Below, one piece after another: positions 10,822-17,993 of a stretch of DNA of 64,000 nt. Both the position numbers and the translations under genes were made by a program. The stretch lies in assembly GCF_038751955.1 (NCBI RefSeq), contig NZ_JBCEXH010000001.1, forward strand, positions 204,300 through 268,299, read 5' to 3'. Position 1 is the stretch's first letter, and every line of letters starts with the position of its first letter. The notes under the pieces are model-generated. The model ran no database searches. It saw only the letters and a list, made by a program, of their open reading frames with translations, and was not told the DNA's origin. This DNA is from Methanocalculus natronophilus (GTDB taxonomy: Archaea > Halobacteriota > Methanomicrobia > Methanomicrobiales > Methanocorpusculaceae).

Positions 10822-12042
10822 ATGGAGAATGAATATGAACCAGAGGTTCAGATAGAAGTACGCGATATCTACAAGGTTTTTGGCAGTAAGCCTGAAAAAG
10901 GGCTTGAATTGTTGAAAAAAGGAGAGAAAAAAGATAAAATTCTTGAGAAGACCGGGCAGACAGTCGGTCTTGACAATGTCTCTTTCCAGGTGCATAAAGG
11001 CGAGATTTTCGTCCTGATGGGCCTCTCGGGATGTGGAAAATCGACACTCTTACGATGCTTAAACAGGCTCATTGAGCCGACTGCAGGAGAGATCATCATC
11101 AAGGGAAAGGATATCGTTGCAATGAATGAAGACGAGATCCGCGAGTTCAGGAGGCAACAGGTCGGCATGATCTTCCAGAACTTCGCACTTCTCCCTCACA
11201 AAACCGTCATCGACAATGTGGCATTCGGCCTTGAGATCCAGGGAATGGCTCTCGAGGAGCGCCATAAGAAGGCCCAGGATGCGTTGCAGCTTGTTGGCCT
11301 GACCGGGTATGAGACCAGTATGCCCGATCAGCTCTCAGGAGGGATGAAGCAGCGTGTCGGACTTGCCCGGGCGCTTGCAAGTGATGCTGAGATCCTGCTG
11401 ATGGATGAAGCATTCAGCGCACTTGACCCCCTGATCAGGCGGGATATGCAGGACGAACTGATTGATCTGCAGGAGAGGCTCTCCAAAACCGTCATCTTTG
11501 TGACGCACGATCTCGACGAGGCATTAAAACTTGGAAACCGGATCGCATTGATGAGGGATGGGAAAATCATCCAGGTGGGGACAGCAGAAGAGATCCTGAC
11601 AAATCCAAGCAACGAGTACGTTGAGCGGTTTGTTGCCGATGTCGATATGACGCGGGTACTGACTGCACAGGATGTCATGAAGAAAGCCGACCCCGTCATC
11701 TCATGCAAGAGCGGGCCACGGCTTGCTGCCCGGCTGATGAAAGAGTATGGCATATCAAACCTCTTTGTCGTGACCCAGCACCGCATTATCAAGGGAATCG
11801 TCACAATTGACGATGTTGTCAGGGCGGTACAGGAAGACCACAAGACGCTTGAGGATATCGTTATCAACGACATTCAGATGATCCAGACAGATACCCCGCT
11901 TGCTGATATTATTCCGCTTATTGCAGAGAGCAGGTATCCGATCCCGGTTGTTGATGAAGACACCAGGTTAAAAGGAATCATCGTGAGAGGATCGGTCCTC
12001 TCAGCACTTGCACGCAAGGAGAGTGAACCAATTGTTGCCTAA
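10822..12042 (+). CDS. proV: Glycine betaine/proline-type ABC transporter ATPase with CBS pair
   Basis: 406 residues. The ABC ATPase has Walker A GLSGCGKST (about 74-82), the Q-loop IFQNFALLPHKT, signature LSGGMKQR and Walker B ILLMDEAFSALD. A C-terminal CBS pair follows (about 285-395: TAQDVMKKADPVI, then QTDTPLADIIPLI). The extended N-terminus and GLSGCGKST are typical of ProV/OpuAA. CBS domains in this family act as ionic-strength sensors, so gating by osmotic stress is likely. It forms an operon with the permease (overlapping) and the binding protein. Confidence 0.95.
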   Translation: MENEYEPEVQIEVRDIYKVFGSKPEKGLELLKKGEKKDKILEKTGQTVGLDNVSFQVHKGEIFVLMGLSGCGKSTLLRCLNRLIEPTAGEIIIKGKDIVAMNEDEIREFRRQQVGMIFQNFALLPHKTVIDNVAFGLEIQGMALEERHKKAQDALQLVGLTGYETSMPDQLSGGMKQRVGLARALASDAEILLMDEAFSALDPLIRRDMQDELIDLQERLSKTVIFVTHDLDEALKLGNRIALMRDGKIIQVGTAEEILTNPSNEYVERFVADVDMTRVLTAQDVMKKADPVISCKSGPRLAARLMKEYGISNLFVVTQHRIIKGIVTIDDVVRAVQEDHKTLEDIVINDIQMIQTDTPLADIIPLIAESRYPIPVVDEDTRLKGIIVRGSVLSALARKESEPIVA

Positions 12043-12877
12043 AATTCCAATCGGCCAGGTTGTGTCCGATGTTGTGGACTGGATAGACGCAAACCTCGGG
12101 TGGCTTCTTGATGCCATCACGACAGTGCTCAGGTTCCTGCTCAACGGCTTCCAGGATCTCCTGATGGTCCTGCCGCCGCTTGCCATGATCCTGGTGCTCG
12201 GCGTGATCATCTTCTTTATCACAAGAAAGGATCTCCGCCTTTCTCTCCTGAGTATTGCCGGGCTTCTCTTAATCTGGAATCTCCAGCTCTGGAGCCATGC
12301 CATGCTGACGCTGGCACTTGTGCTGTCATCAACAATTATAGCACTCATCATCGGCATACCCCTTGGTATCCTGGCAGCAAACAGTGATACATTCAATGCC
12401 GGAATCCGGGTGCTTCTTGACTTTATGCAGACGATGCCTGCTTTTGTCTACCTTGTTCCGGCTGTCATCTTCTTCAGTCTCGGGAATGTACCGGGCATGA
12501 TCGCAACAGTCGTCTTTGCAATGCCCCCGGCAATCCGGCTGACCAACCTGGGTATCAGGCAGATACCGGTTGAGCTGATCGAGGTTTCAGATGCGTTCGG
12601 TGCTACACCACGGCAGAAACTGATAAAGGTTCAGCTCCCGGTTGCCCTTCCAACCATTATGGCAGGAGTCAACCAGTGTATCATGCTCGCCCTCTCAATG
12701 GTTGTTATTGCATCCATGATCGGCGCAGGAGGGCTTGGCTACCAGGTGCTTGTCGGCATCCAGCGGGTCAATATCGCGATGGGCTTTGAGGCAGGCCTTG
12801 CCATTGTGATCATTGCAATCATTCTTGACCGTATCACCCAGAACCTGATAAAGACAGAGAAGGGACGGGAGGAGTGA
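12032..12877 (+). CDS. proW: Glycine betaine/proline-type ABC transporter permease
   Basis: About 281 residues with multiple membrane helices and the binding-protein-dependent permease loop (EVSDAFGATPRQKLIKVQLPVALPTIMAGVNQ split over the EAA region). The start is probably TTG at 12032 or 12035, overlapping the ATPase stop, because GGAGAGTGA ends about 5 nt upstream. The frame is open further up inside the ATPase gene. QTMPAFVYLVPAVIFFSLG and MVVIASMIGAGGLG are family hallmarks. It is the membrane channel of the importer. Confidence 0.93.
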   Translation: MLPKIPIGQVVSDVVDWIDANLGWLLDAITTVLRFLLNGFQDLLMVLPPLAMILVLGVIIFFITRKDLRLSLLSIAGLLLIWNLQLWSHAMLTLALVLSSTIIALIIGIPLGILAANSDTFNAGIRVLLDFMQTMPAFVYLVPAVIFFSLGNVPGMIATVVFAMPPAIRLTNLGIRQIPVELIEVSDAFGATPRQKLIKVQLPVALPTIMAGVNQCIMLALSMVVIASMIGAGGLGYQVLVGIQRVNIAMGFEAGLAIVIIAIILDRITQNLIKTEKGREE

Positions 12878-13003
12878 GAAGGCAACCAGCCAGCAAATAT
12901 AAAACAGACCCACAACTTTTTTTACAGATAAGTCACTAAGTTCAAACTGTCTTTTATCAGACATAAGACATATTCACGAAACTGAGTGAATTGGATGGTG
13001 TAA
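12878..13003 (+). promoter_or_regulatory. Spacer with possible internal promoter before the binding-protein gene
   Basis: This 126-nt spacer contains AAATATAAAACA (about 12894-12905), a good archaeal TATA match, and then a CTTTTTTT run that could serve as a terminator for the upstream genes. The binding protein may therefore have its own transcript, which would allow the excess of binding protein usual for such importers. Confidence 0.4.
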
Positions 13004-13876
13004 ATGATGATTTCCAGAAACAAAATCATGATGATTATGGCCGGGCTTCTGCTCGCCTCCGCACTTCTGGTTGCCGGATGTGTGGATGAGCCGACAGAGC
13101 CTGCAAAAGAGATATCTATTGGCTATGTCACCTGGGACTGTGCAATTGCAAGTACCCACGTGATGAAAGAGGTCTTTGAAGAGGCAGGGTACCGGGTAAC
13201 CCTGGTCGCAGTCGATGCAGGACCGCTGTATGCAGGCCTTGCCCGCGGTGATATCGACTTCACAACAACCGCATGGCTCCCCCACACCCACAGCATGTAC
13301 TGGGAGGAGTATGGAGACCGGCTTGACTACGTGCAGGACAACATTCCAGGAGATGCACGGATCGGCCTTGTTGTGCCGCAGTACGTCACCATCGACTCAA
13401 TTGAGGAGATGAACGAGGCTGCAGACAACTTTGAGGGCAATATCATCGGTATCGAGCCTGGAGCAGGCATCATGTCGGCAACCGAGGATGCAATTGTTGA
13501 GTATGACCTTGACTATGAGCTGGTTGCAAGCAGCAGTGCAGGCATGGCAGCAGAACTCAGGTCTGCATATGGACGGGAAGAATGGATTGTCGTCACCGGC
13601 TGGGCTCCGCACTGGAAGTTCGGCAGGTTCGACCTGAAGTTCCTTGATGACCCAAAGGGCGTCTATGGTGAGGCAGAGGATGTTGTCACGATTGCACGCC
13701 AGAACCTTGCAACAGATGACCCCGAGGCATATGCGATCCTTGAGCGCTTCGAGTGGACAGCTGTTGATATTGCAGAAGTGATGACCAGTATCGAGGATGG
13801 CGTACCTGATGATGAGGCAGCACGCGCCTGGATCTCAGCCAACCCCGACACGGTCGCATACTGGATCTCAGGGTAG
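13004..13876 (+). CDS. proX: Glycine betaine/proline-type ABC transporter substrate-binding lipoprotein
   Basis: 290 residues with a lipoprotein signal (MMISRNKIMMIMAGLLL, then lipobox LVAGC with the acylated Cys at about 27) and a mature OpuAC domain. Trp-rich segments (YVTWDC, TAWLPHTHSMYW, VTGWAPHWKF) are consistent with the aromatic cage that binds quaternary ammonium groups. It would sit on the outer face of the membrane and deliver betaine or a related osmolyte to the permease. The ligand cannot be fixed from sequence alone. Confidence 0.93.
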   Translation: MMISRNKIMMIMAGLLLASALLVAGCVDEPTEPAKEISIGYVTWDCAIASTHVMKEVFEEAGYRVTLVAVDAGPLYAGLARGDIDFTTTAWLPHTHSMYWEEYGDRLDYVQDNIPGDARIGLVVPQYVTIDSIEEMNEAADNFEGNIIGIEPGAGIMSATEDAIVEYDLDYELVASSSAGMAAELRSAYGREEWIVVTGWAPHWKFGRFDLKFLDDPKGVYGEAEDVVTIARQNLATDDPEAYAILERFEWTAVDIAEVMTSIEDGVPDDEAARAWISANPDTVAYWISG

Positions 13877-15060: not shown

Positions 15061-16173
15061 TTATTCCCTTTTTTTCCGGTCCAGGCAGGCATTCAGAACC
15101 AGTTCAGCCGCATGCAGGGTACCTTCCGGCCCGGCGAGAGGGCGGCTGCCAAGCACCACCCTGCTCCGGTCAGGCGGGGTAATCCCGATAAAACCTGCAT
15201 CTGGCAGGATCCGCTGCTCATAGGAGGAGCCGAGAAGAAGATTATAGGAGTCCCGTTCAAGTGCCTCTTTGATCTGATCCAGATCAGTGACAGCCGGGGT
15301 GTCGGTTTCGTTTCTTGGCAGTATGCACGGTCTCTCAGCGCCAAGATACCGGGTGAGGAGATCTGAGAAGAAGCCGGCATACCCGGACTGGGCACAGATA
15401 ACGGCAAGCGGGGGATCATTTCGCCTGAGGTACTTCTCGCAGGCGGCGATCACAAGCTCCTCTGCCCTGTCACACCCGGCAATAAGCGGATCCGGATCCG
15501 CATCCGGCCAGGTATCCAGGAGGGCAAAAACCGTGTTGCGTGTATTTTCTATGCCAAGAAGCGTCCCGCCGTCTCTTCCGGATGGCATACCGTAGTCCGG
15601 GTTCGTTGTCACGGTAACCGGTCCTGCTTTCTGCAAAGAACCCAGCTGATCCCATGAGAAGACGGTTGCAATCGGGATGCCGGCAAGGGCGAGTATACGG
15701 GCGGCTTCATGCATATTGCCGCGCCAGAAGAGATCCAGCAGACAGATCCCCCCGATATTCACCCCTTCACCGGCAGGAGGTCGCGTCTGCAGAAGGCTTT
15801 CCAGTGCGATGCCATACCCCGCCTCTGCATTGCCGACAAATCCGGGTGAATCAACAAGTATAACCGGATACCCGGCAAGTTCTGCTGCCAGGTCCTCACC
15901 CATCAGTGCAGGCACACAGGAGTTTACAACCGCTACCTGCTCTGCCTCTAAAAGAGCCGTTTTGACCACCTGGCGGAGGCGATCACCTGCGCCGAAGATC
16001 ACCTCCTTCTCCAGGATGAAAGACCCGGTAAGAGGAGCTTTGATGAGAGATTTCGGGTAATAGTAGCAGCCGCTTGAGCCGTGTATCACCACACGCAGGC
16101 CCTGGATCCCCGCAAGACAGGCCGCTGCCCCGGTCAGTGCACAGGGCCAGACCGGGTTTGTGCAGTCAGGCAC
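15061..16173 (-). CDS. Nitrogenase component-1-like subunit (second)
   Basis: 370 residues from a GTG at 16173-16171. That start overlaps the preceding stop by 8 nt and has GGAGGTG 8 nt upstream (16182-16188). The longer open frame only reads back through the neighbour. NifD/NifK-type features are C11 ([12 protein letters not shown]), C36 ([11 protein letters not shown]) and C86 ([13 protein letters not shown]), spaced like the P-cluster cysteines of component 1. It is about 100 residues shorter than true NifD/K, and no FeMo-cofactor Cys/His ligand motif is apparent. It is probably one half of an alpha-beta pair with the 16166-17218 product, reducing an unknown substrate. Confidence 0.75.
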
Positions 16174-17218
16174 GACCAAGACACCTCCGGAAGAGATGGA
16201 GCATCCGTTTTGTGCCCTCAGTCCCGATCGGGGGATCAAAAGGGAGCCGGAGAGGGGTTCCGGTCTCTGATTCAGTCATGTTGAGTTGTCTGATCACCGT
16301 CCGGGCTGCAGCAACTGCTGCCGGATCGGCATGATGGGAATCGATCCTGATTTCGGCTCCCACCAGATCATCAAACCGGGCATAGAGATCATCAAGACGG
16401 CCTTCCTCATCCCTGATAGCCTCCAGGGGATTGATGCCCGCCGCCTCACCGACATCTTTCAGAAACCTGAGGGTGCCGTCCGGGCCGACCGGAAAGCCTG
16501 GCAGGACGGTTGTGCCAAACCGCCTGGTCAGATCAGATCCCACCTCAATAAGCCCGGGGTCACGCAGGATTGCAAGTGGTGCGGAACTGATCCTCGCACA
16601 GTCAGATGCCGTCATCCTCCTCACAAACCGGATGCCCGGATGGAGGCCGAGGAGAGAGAGGAGGCGGGCTACCTCGCAGTAGTTCTCCTCTGCCTCGTAC
16701 TCGAGGTTCTTTTCGCCGACAATAAGCACCTCGCCATCACGGGAGATCCGATCCTGGCGGGACGAGAGGGTCAGAAGGCTCCGGAGGGCATTTTTGATCC
16801 CTTCAGAGAAACCACCGCCAAGAAACCCGGCACCAGGTATATGGACAACCGGTGTTGATCGTTTCTCCCTGCAGAGAGCAGCAGTATCATCGCCGATTGT
16901 ATCTGCAAGGCAGGTTGATACAACACAGATAAGGCCTGGGCGAAGCTCGTCTGCGGCCCTCAGTGCCTCTTCAAGCGCCGCTTCCCCACCAAATATCACC
17001 TCGTTCTCCTGGAGGTTGCTTGAAACCAGGCGGGGAACCTCCAGATCACCGATCTCTGCCAGTGAGGCATGAAGGAGAGAGGCATTATGATGGGTGCAGC
17101 CTGACGGCCCATGGATCACGGTGACGGCACCCTCAAGAAAACCGGTGACCGAGAGGACGCCGGTTAAGGTGCACCCTTCACTCCTTGAGATATCGGTAGG
17201 CAAGAGACTCGAGTTCAT
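16166..17218 (-). CDS. Nitrogenase component-1-like subunit (first)
   Basis: 350 residues from ATG 17218. A TTG at 17203 is an alternative, since the start lies within the end of the NifH-like gene. C16 (SEGCTLTG), C41 ([12 protein letters not shown]) and C103 ([13 protein letters not shown]) reproduce the component-1 cysteine triad. A typical [12 protein letters not shown] helix and an [10 protein letters not shown] loop follow. It is distinct in sequence from the next subunit, so the complex probably resembles NifDK or BchNB rather than homodimeric CfbD. It overlaps both neighbours, and a conserved stoichiometry is likely. Confidence 0.75.
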
Positions 17219-17993
17219 CAATGGTTAATGGTGTTGGAATGGAGTATTCGGTATTGCCAAGGATTGCGCCTGCACTCAGGCGGTAGACCTCTGCCTGGGA
17301 CGAAGCGGGGGCATACTCGATGACGGTCTTCTTATTCAGTTCTGCCTGCTGAACAGTTGGGGAACGTGGAATAAACGTGATCAGCCGGGAACCGATCGCC
17401 TCTGCAAATTCAGCAACAAGTTCCTCTTCACAATCAATATTCTTTCCGTTCCCGATCACCCCGCCGAGGCGGACCCTGCTTCGCCGGTTTGCACTGAGCC
17501 GGGAAACCGCCTTTGCGATATTGTTTGCCGCATAGAGTGACATCAGCTCCCCGGATGTAACCAGGTAGACCTCTTCGGCATAGCTCTCCCGCATCGGCAT
17601 GGCAAACCCGCCGCAGACGACATCGCCCAGGACATCATAGACGATGATATCTCCCCTGAGCGCACCGAGCTTCTCGAGGAGCTGAAATGTCGCGATGATG
17701 CCCCTGCCAGCACACCCGACACCGGGATCAGGACCCCCTGCTTCAACGCACCTGACACCTGCATAGCCGGTGTAGATGACATCCGCAACCGGGATAGCAC
17801 TCCCGTTATCCCTGAGCAGATCGAGAACGGTCGGGATCACGGTGCCATTCATCAGCATCCGGGTGCTGTCATGTTTTGGATCGCAACCGATCTGAAGGAC
17901 ATCGCGTCCCTCTTCTGCCCAGGCCGCTGAGAGATTGGCGGATGTCGTGGACTTTCCTATGCCGCCCTTTCCATAGAGGGCTATCTGTCTCAT
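17178..17993 (-). CDS. NifH/CfbC-like ATP-dependent reductase iron protein
   Basis: 271 residues from [16 protein letters not shown]; the open frame continues upstream without homology. Walker A is GKGGIGKS at 8-15. The [4Fe-4S] ligands are C94 ([12 protein letters not shown]) and C127 (LGDVVCGGF), and the dimer-interface ADP-ribosylation region (CAGRG) is intact. Such proteins are homodimeric electron donors to a component-1 partner. CfbC (F430 synthesis) is the nearest well-known methanogen relative. However, two different component-1-like genes follow here, so a separate role is likely. It heads a three-gene minus-strand operon. Confidence 0.85.

Follow-up and report, generated by a model that had tools for sequence, protein, structure and literature searches.

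The question raised by this locus is what reaction is carried out by a nitrogenase-like iron protein and two different, short component-1 subunits that are encoded together in Methanocalculus natronophilus. The window (the whole stretch of 64,000 nucleotides that was analysed) carries the three genes, here called P3, P2 and P1, as follows:

17178..17993, minus strand: P3, iron protein of the NifH/CfbC type (271 aa; P-loop GKGGIGKS; [4Fe-4S] cysteines C94 and C127)
16166..17218, minus strand: P2, alpha (NifD)-type component-1 subunit (350 aa; ATG at 17218; cysteines C16/C41/C103)
15061..16173, minus strand: P1, beta (NifK)-type component-1 subunit (370 aa; GTG at 16173; cysteines C11/C36/C86)
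17178..17218, minus strand: overlap of P3 and P2, 41 nt
16166..16173, minus strand: overlap of P2 stop and P1 start, 8 nt, GTGCCTGA, the GTG of P1 lying inside the P2 stop region and preceded by a GGAGGTG ribosome-binding-type motif

Pfam search assigned P3 to Fer4_NifH (PF00142, E 7e-107) and both P2 and P1 to Oxidored_nitro (PF00148, E 7e-48 and 1.5e-26, respectively), and no NCBIfam equivalog came near its cut-off with P2 or P1. A sequence-only reading had described an iron protein of the NifH/CfbC type with C94 and C127, followed by two different component-1 proteins of about 350-370 residues with a cysteine triad each, and coordinates, Pfam domains and residues all confirm that description. 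The overlap between P3 and P2 has a similar size in nearly all related loci (n = 49 measured), which suggests translational coupling. The cysteine columns of P2 and P1 are invariant (23 orthologues of each), and a chance origin of the arrangement is excluded because the orthologues recur as an operon throughout Methanomicrobiales. Beside the operon, positions 10822-13876 of the window hold what by sequence is a glycine-betaine/proline-type ABC transporter operon (ATPase, permease and binding protein) of ordinary appearance.

Both phylogeny and fold identify P2 as an alpha (NifD/E-type) and P1 as a beta (NifK/N-type) subunit. The two proteins form clades separate from CfbD with support of 100, and they fall outside the Nif, Mar and Bch clades as well, so the trees bear out the earlier suggestion of a short, heteromeric component 1 distinct from CfbD and from the characterised clades. 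Profile scores agree: P2 and P1 reached 52 and 34 bits with the CfbD model TIGR03282 (cut-off 268) and stayed far below the cut-offs of the DPOR/COR models TIGR01279/TIGR01278. The AlphaFold2 models are confident (pLDDT 87.3 for P2 and 90.0 for P1). The P2 model matches MarD as its top fold match, BchNB and NifEN, and the P1 model matches NifK-type subunits; P2 has a shortened C-terminal third, the part with which BchN and NifD contribute to the pocket.

All three P-cluster cysteine columns are occupied by cysteine in both P2 and P1, compared with two of three in CfbD and one in BchB. The column of NifD Cys275, which is cysteine in NifD, NifE, MarD and NflS, holds an invariant arginine in P2 and leucine or asparagine in P1, and is also non-cysteine in CfbD, BchN and BchB; the column of His442 is not histidine in P2 or P1. 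Judged from these residues, a FeMoco or L-cluster site of known type is not present, and a metallocluster site in P2P1 is unlikely. The natural expectation is then that P2P1 reduces an organic substrate directly, in the manner of DPOR and CfbCD.

Among characterised systems, NifDK, VnfDK and AnfDK have the cofactor ligands Cys275 and His442, neither of which is found in P2 or P1. NifEN keeps the Cys275 equivalent and accompanies nifDK, whereas P2 lacks the cysteine and the genome has no nifDK, its PF00148 proteins numbering only three; the earlier claim that nifE and nifN are missing nearby holds genome-wide for NifE-/NifN-type genes. Cfb, Mar, Nfa and Isr are group IV enzymes (PMC11423573). 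Among these, MarHDK, IsrHDK and other metallocluster enzymes share with the operon three P-cluster cysteines on both subunits, but they form a separate clade, and P2 and P1 have neither the cofactor cysteine nor an adjacent radical-SAM NifB-like gene. CfbC/CfbD resembles the operon in the match of P3 to the CfbC model, in the compact subunits and in the absence of the cofactor cysteine; CfbD, however, is homodimeric with two cluster cysteines per subunit, whereas P2 and P1 differ from each other and have three each, and canonical CfbC adjoins cfbD and groups apart from P3. DPOR (BchL/BchN/BchB) and COR (BchX/Y/Z) share the two-component layout and a heteromeric component 1 without metallocluster site, and BchNB matches the P1 and P2 models with TM of about 0.7-0.8. 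BchB, in contrast to P1 with its three cysteines, has one cysteine and an Asp-type position, BchN is about 70 residues longer than P2, and the chlorophyll-pathway context of DPOR and COR does not apply to Methanomicrobiales, which are non-phototrophic methanogens.

Of the 83 Methanomicrobiales genomes sampled, 81 have an orthologue of P2, defined as a sequence scoring over 365 bits with the P2 profile (the next score was 188 bits), and the 311 genomes of other Halobacteriota have none. With the P1 profile, P1 was detected in 126 of 135 good Methanomicrobiales genomes and was absent from every listed genome of the genus g30. Related loci lie on contigs of Methanocalculus, Methanocorpusculaceae, Methanoculleus, Methanoregula, Methanofollis, Methanogenium and Methanolinea; P1 is retained in Methanoculleus-type genomes, though inverted and displaced by about 2-3 kb. 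In two genomes (G072 and G420) exactly P2-P1 is missing and P3 is kept, directly before the gene that elsewhere in the family follows P1. This clean loss supports the view that P2P1 is a functional unit, that it is dispensable, and that P3 has another partner. The conserved neighbours TrkH, a PRK-like kinase and an FprA-like protein were rejected as a functional clue because they reflect order-wide synteny, and no corrin, F430 or heme gene was found in the operon or among its conserved neighbours. No description of the P3-P2-P1 operon in Methanomicrobiales was found in the literature covered, a coverage that leaves out most subscription journals.

The Methanocalculus genome, which is 99.7% complete, encodes no full-length NifH-type protein other than P3. 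The gene for CfbD lies on a different contig, immediately after a CfbE-like gene; no CfbC was found beside this pair in the Methanocalculus genome, and canonical CfbC was not found in Methanomicrobiales. The search for separate cfbC and cfbD genes, as proposed earlier, thus recovered a cfbE-cfbD pair elsewhere and no separate CfbC. Since P3 is the sole full-length NifH-type protein and a separate CfbC is missing, P3 very probably serves CfbD too, and the view of the locus as a distinct reductase stands for component 1 and is not supported for the iron protein, which would not be exclusive to the P2P1 enzyme. In closed relatives, among them G010, G036, G038, G042, G045 and G061, there is one match over the cut-off of the CfbC model, and it adjoins P2; P3 is the gene immediately upstream of P2 in related genomes.

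The identity of P3 itself was assessed by profiles and by phylogeny. P3 passes the NCBI CfbC model NF033200 by one bit (403.0 bits, cut-off 402). Methanosarcinaceae-type and other genomes carry CfbE-CfbD-CfbC or CfbD-CfbC clusters, and the CfbC of these CfbD-linked clusters scores only about 240-255 bits against P3. In the Fe-protein trees canonical CfbC forms a separate clade and P3 is placed elsewhere (98/93 and 100/99 clades): its nearest neighbour is the NifH part of a NifH-NifD fusion (88/76), and this pair joins NifH (95/94). A clade of P3 and CfbC costs 10.7 log units, with an AU P-value of 0.12, and is hence not rejected. With regard to membership in the CfbC/CfbD clade, which the sequence-only reading had named as a possible outcome, P2 and P1 are clearly outside CfbD and P3 is split between model and trees. 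The most economical interpretation is a loss of canonical CfbC in Methanomicrobiales, with P3 serving CfbD instead. P3 would then probably be the electron donor of the F430 reductase as well, and P2P1 probably a second, dispensable acceptor of P3.

Two further observations concern the iron protein and its partners. The P3 sequences of genomes without P2P1 (L234:5902-6720 and L296:5858-6715) are basal in the P3 clade and have longer branches, as if constraint had been relaxed after the loss of P2P1. NflS is a single-subunit, D-like protein of about 400 aa (L231:4930-6159 in G036; also in L239, L243 and L245) with three P-cluster cysteines and the Cys275 equivalent, and its gene in G036 is about 2.4 kb away from that of CfbD. 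P3 is the only strong NifH-type protein in the closed genome G036, so three types of component 1 may draw on one Fe protein there.

The nearest relatives of the operon belong to an uncharacterised NifH-NifD fusion system, in which FusHD combines the Fe protein (FusH) and the alpha subunit (FusD) and FusK, encoded behind it, is a NifK-like protein. P2 is sister to FusD (support 97), P1 to FusK (84) and P3 to FusH, the support for the latter two pairs being moderate; the profile score between P2 and FusD is 377, against 276 for the next best. Like P3-P2-P1, the fusion system has an alpha subunit without the cofactor cysteine. It differs in that P3 and P2 are separate, overlapping genes and that FusK has one of the three cluster cysteines, whereas P1 has all three. 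A FecCD-type permease is encoded at 9 of 15 fusion loci, mostly together with periplasmic binding genes, and the same nine loci carry varying combinations of CbiZ, CbiK, CobN/Mg-chelatase (CobN/ChlH) and ChlI/VWA (ChlI/D-type) chelatase. Such ABC transporter, CbiZ, CbiK, CobN and chelatase genes, present at several fusion loci, are not found with the P3-P2-P1 operon. Fusion loci with a BtuCDF-type transporter and CbiZ, CbiK, CobN, ChlH or chelatase genes are L251-L253, L256-L258, L260-L262 and L265; L260 also contains ORFs that look like hemL and hemC. Among the fusion loci with longer ORFs, L254, L255, L263 and L264 have no obvious tetrapyrrole neighbours.

The genus without P1, g30, is enriched in fusion genes: 8 of its genomes carry them (G515, G517, G519, G520, G522, G523, G525 and G420), compared with 11 elsewhere in Methanomicrobiales. 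A one-for-one replacement of P2P1 by FusHD/FusK was rejected, since both systems are missing from G072 and occur together in several genomes, so the enrichment is only suggestive. Dos Santos et al. (2012; PMC3464626) mentioned, as data not shown, a fused nifH-nifE followed by a nifN-like gene. The same paper described nitrogenase-like pairs with three plus three cysteines in which both FeMoco ligands are absent, and the P3-P2-P1 operon is not named there; the gene pair that it gives as an example from Methanocorpusculum shows a 2+1 cysteine pattern and differs from P2-P1.

Taking these results together, we lean towards P3-P2-P1 reducing an organic substrate, probably a tetrapyrrole, in an ATP-dependent reaction, with P3 also serving CfbD. 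P3, P2 and P1 would form a two-component ATP-dependent reductase similar to DPOR (BchL plus BchNB). A P3 dimer with its [4Fe-4S] cluster would dock on a P2P1 heterotetramer, and electrons would pass to a cluster at the P2-P1 interface held by three cysteines from each subunit. As no FeMoco or L-cluster ligand is present, the electrons would then go directly to a conjugated organic substrate, most likely a corrinoid- or F430-related tetrapyrrole; this class is proposed mainly because the fusion relatives sit in corrinoid/tetrapyrrole clusters. The same P3 would reduce CfbD in F430 biosynthesis, replacing canonical CfbC in Methanomicrobiales. Several findings count against this mechanism: the operon contains no substrate gene, four fusion loci have no obvious tetrapyrrole neighbours, the 3+3 cysteines of P2P1 are nearer to nitrogenase and Mar than to BchNB (three cysteines and Asp) or CfbD (2+2), and P2 is short in a region that helps to form the pocket in BchN and NifD. 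The moderate support for the P1-FusK and P3-FusH pairs and the unrejected clade of P3 with canonical CfbC weaken it as well.

The lack of corrin, F430 and heme genes around the operon would also fit a P3-dependent reductase that acts on a non-tetrapyrrole organic substrate (a thioether, sulfonate, pterin or quinone-like compound) with Fe-S clusters only, and group IV enzymes beyond the tetrapyrrole reductases do use thioethers and isethionate (PMC12552129, PMC11423573). The Mar and Isr clades keep their metallocluster, however, while P2 and P1 have no cluster cysteine and lie elsewhere in the tree, and we regard such a substrate as rather unlikely. We give still less weight to a role of P2P1 in modifying or helping CfbD in F430 biosynthesis, either to make an F430 variant or as part of the six-electron reduction. 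The Fe protein that P2P1 and CfbD would have in common speaks for it, as does the occurrence in methanogens of modified F430s without known biosynthetic enzymes (PMC11411713). But G072, which has no P2P1, keeps P3 and a CfbD-type PF00148 protein, which indicates that canonical F430 synthesis is independent of P2P1, and the known variants of F430 mostly carry thio or vinyl modifications instead of being simply reduced.

It is improbable that P2P1 is the missing cobalt-precorrin-6A reductase of Methanomicrobiales corrinoid synthesis, in place of CbiJ. None of the 41 relatives tested has CbiJ (PF02571), while 79 of 83 have CbiD; the closest relatives of P2P1 occur in corrinoid clusters, and the reaction would reduce a macrocycle, as DPOR and CfbCD do (PMC7242693). 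Yet none of the 394 Halobacteriota genomes has CbiJ, and most of these genomes also have no P2P1. In addition, P2P1 does not track CbiD in six genomes: G072 and G420 keep CbiD without P2P1, and G052, G055, G336 and G395 have P2 without CbiD. This explanation was therefore demoted and survives weakly. Among the sampled Halobacteriota, CbiD occurs in 231 of 394 genomes and CbiJ in none. Least probable is a scaffold role like that of NifEN, in which P2P1 would mature [8Fe-9S-C] L-clusters for the MCR activation complex: the best PDB sequence match of the P2 profile is NifE and that complex contains L-type clusters (PMC12176620), but the cofactor cysteine kept in NifE is missing in P2, and the components McrC and Mmp7 of the activation complex are widespread in archaea whereas P2P1 is confined to one order and has been lost in one genus of it, probably all methanogens.

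In its wider form, the preferred reading of a P3-dependent tetrapyrrole reductase says that the enzyme is an order-specific, nitrogenase-like one whose Fe protein displaced canonical CfbC and feeds two (in some genomes three) component-1 enzymes, including the F430 reductase; this we put forward tentatively, as a plausible but somewhat doubtful proposal. P-cluster triads without a cofactor ligand, together with a sister system in corrinoid clusters, make the substrate class directly testable. If the proposal is true, the annotated CfbD donor in Methanomicrobiales would differ from canonical CfbC, and functional assignment would have missed a nitrogenase-like enzyme that nearly all members of this ecologically important order possess. 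F430 biosynthesis is essential for methane formation, and the F430 reductase of this order appears to depend on an Fe protein that is encoded with another enzyme.
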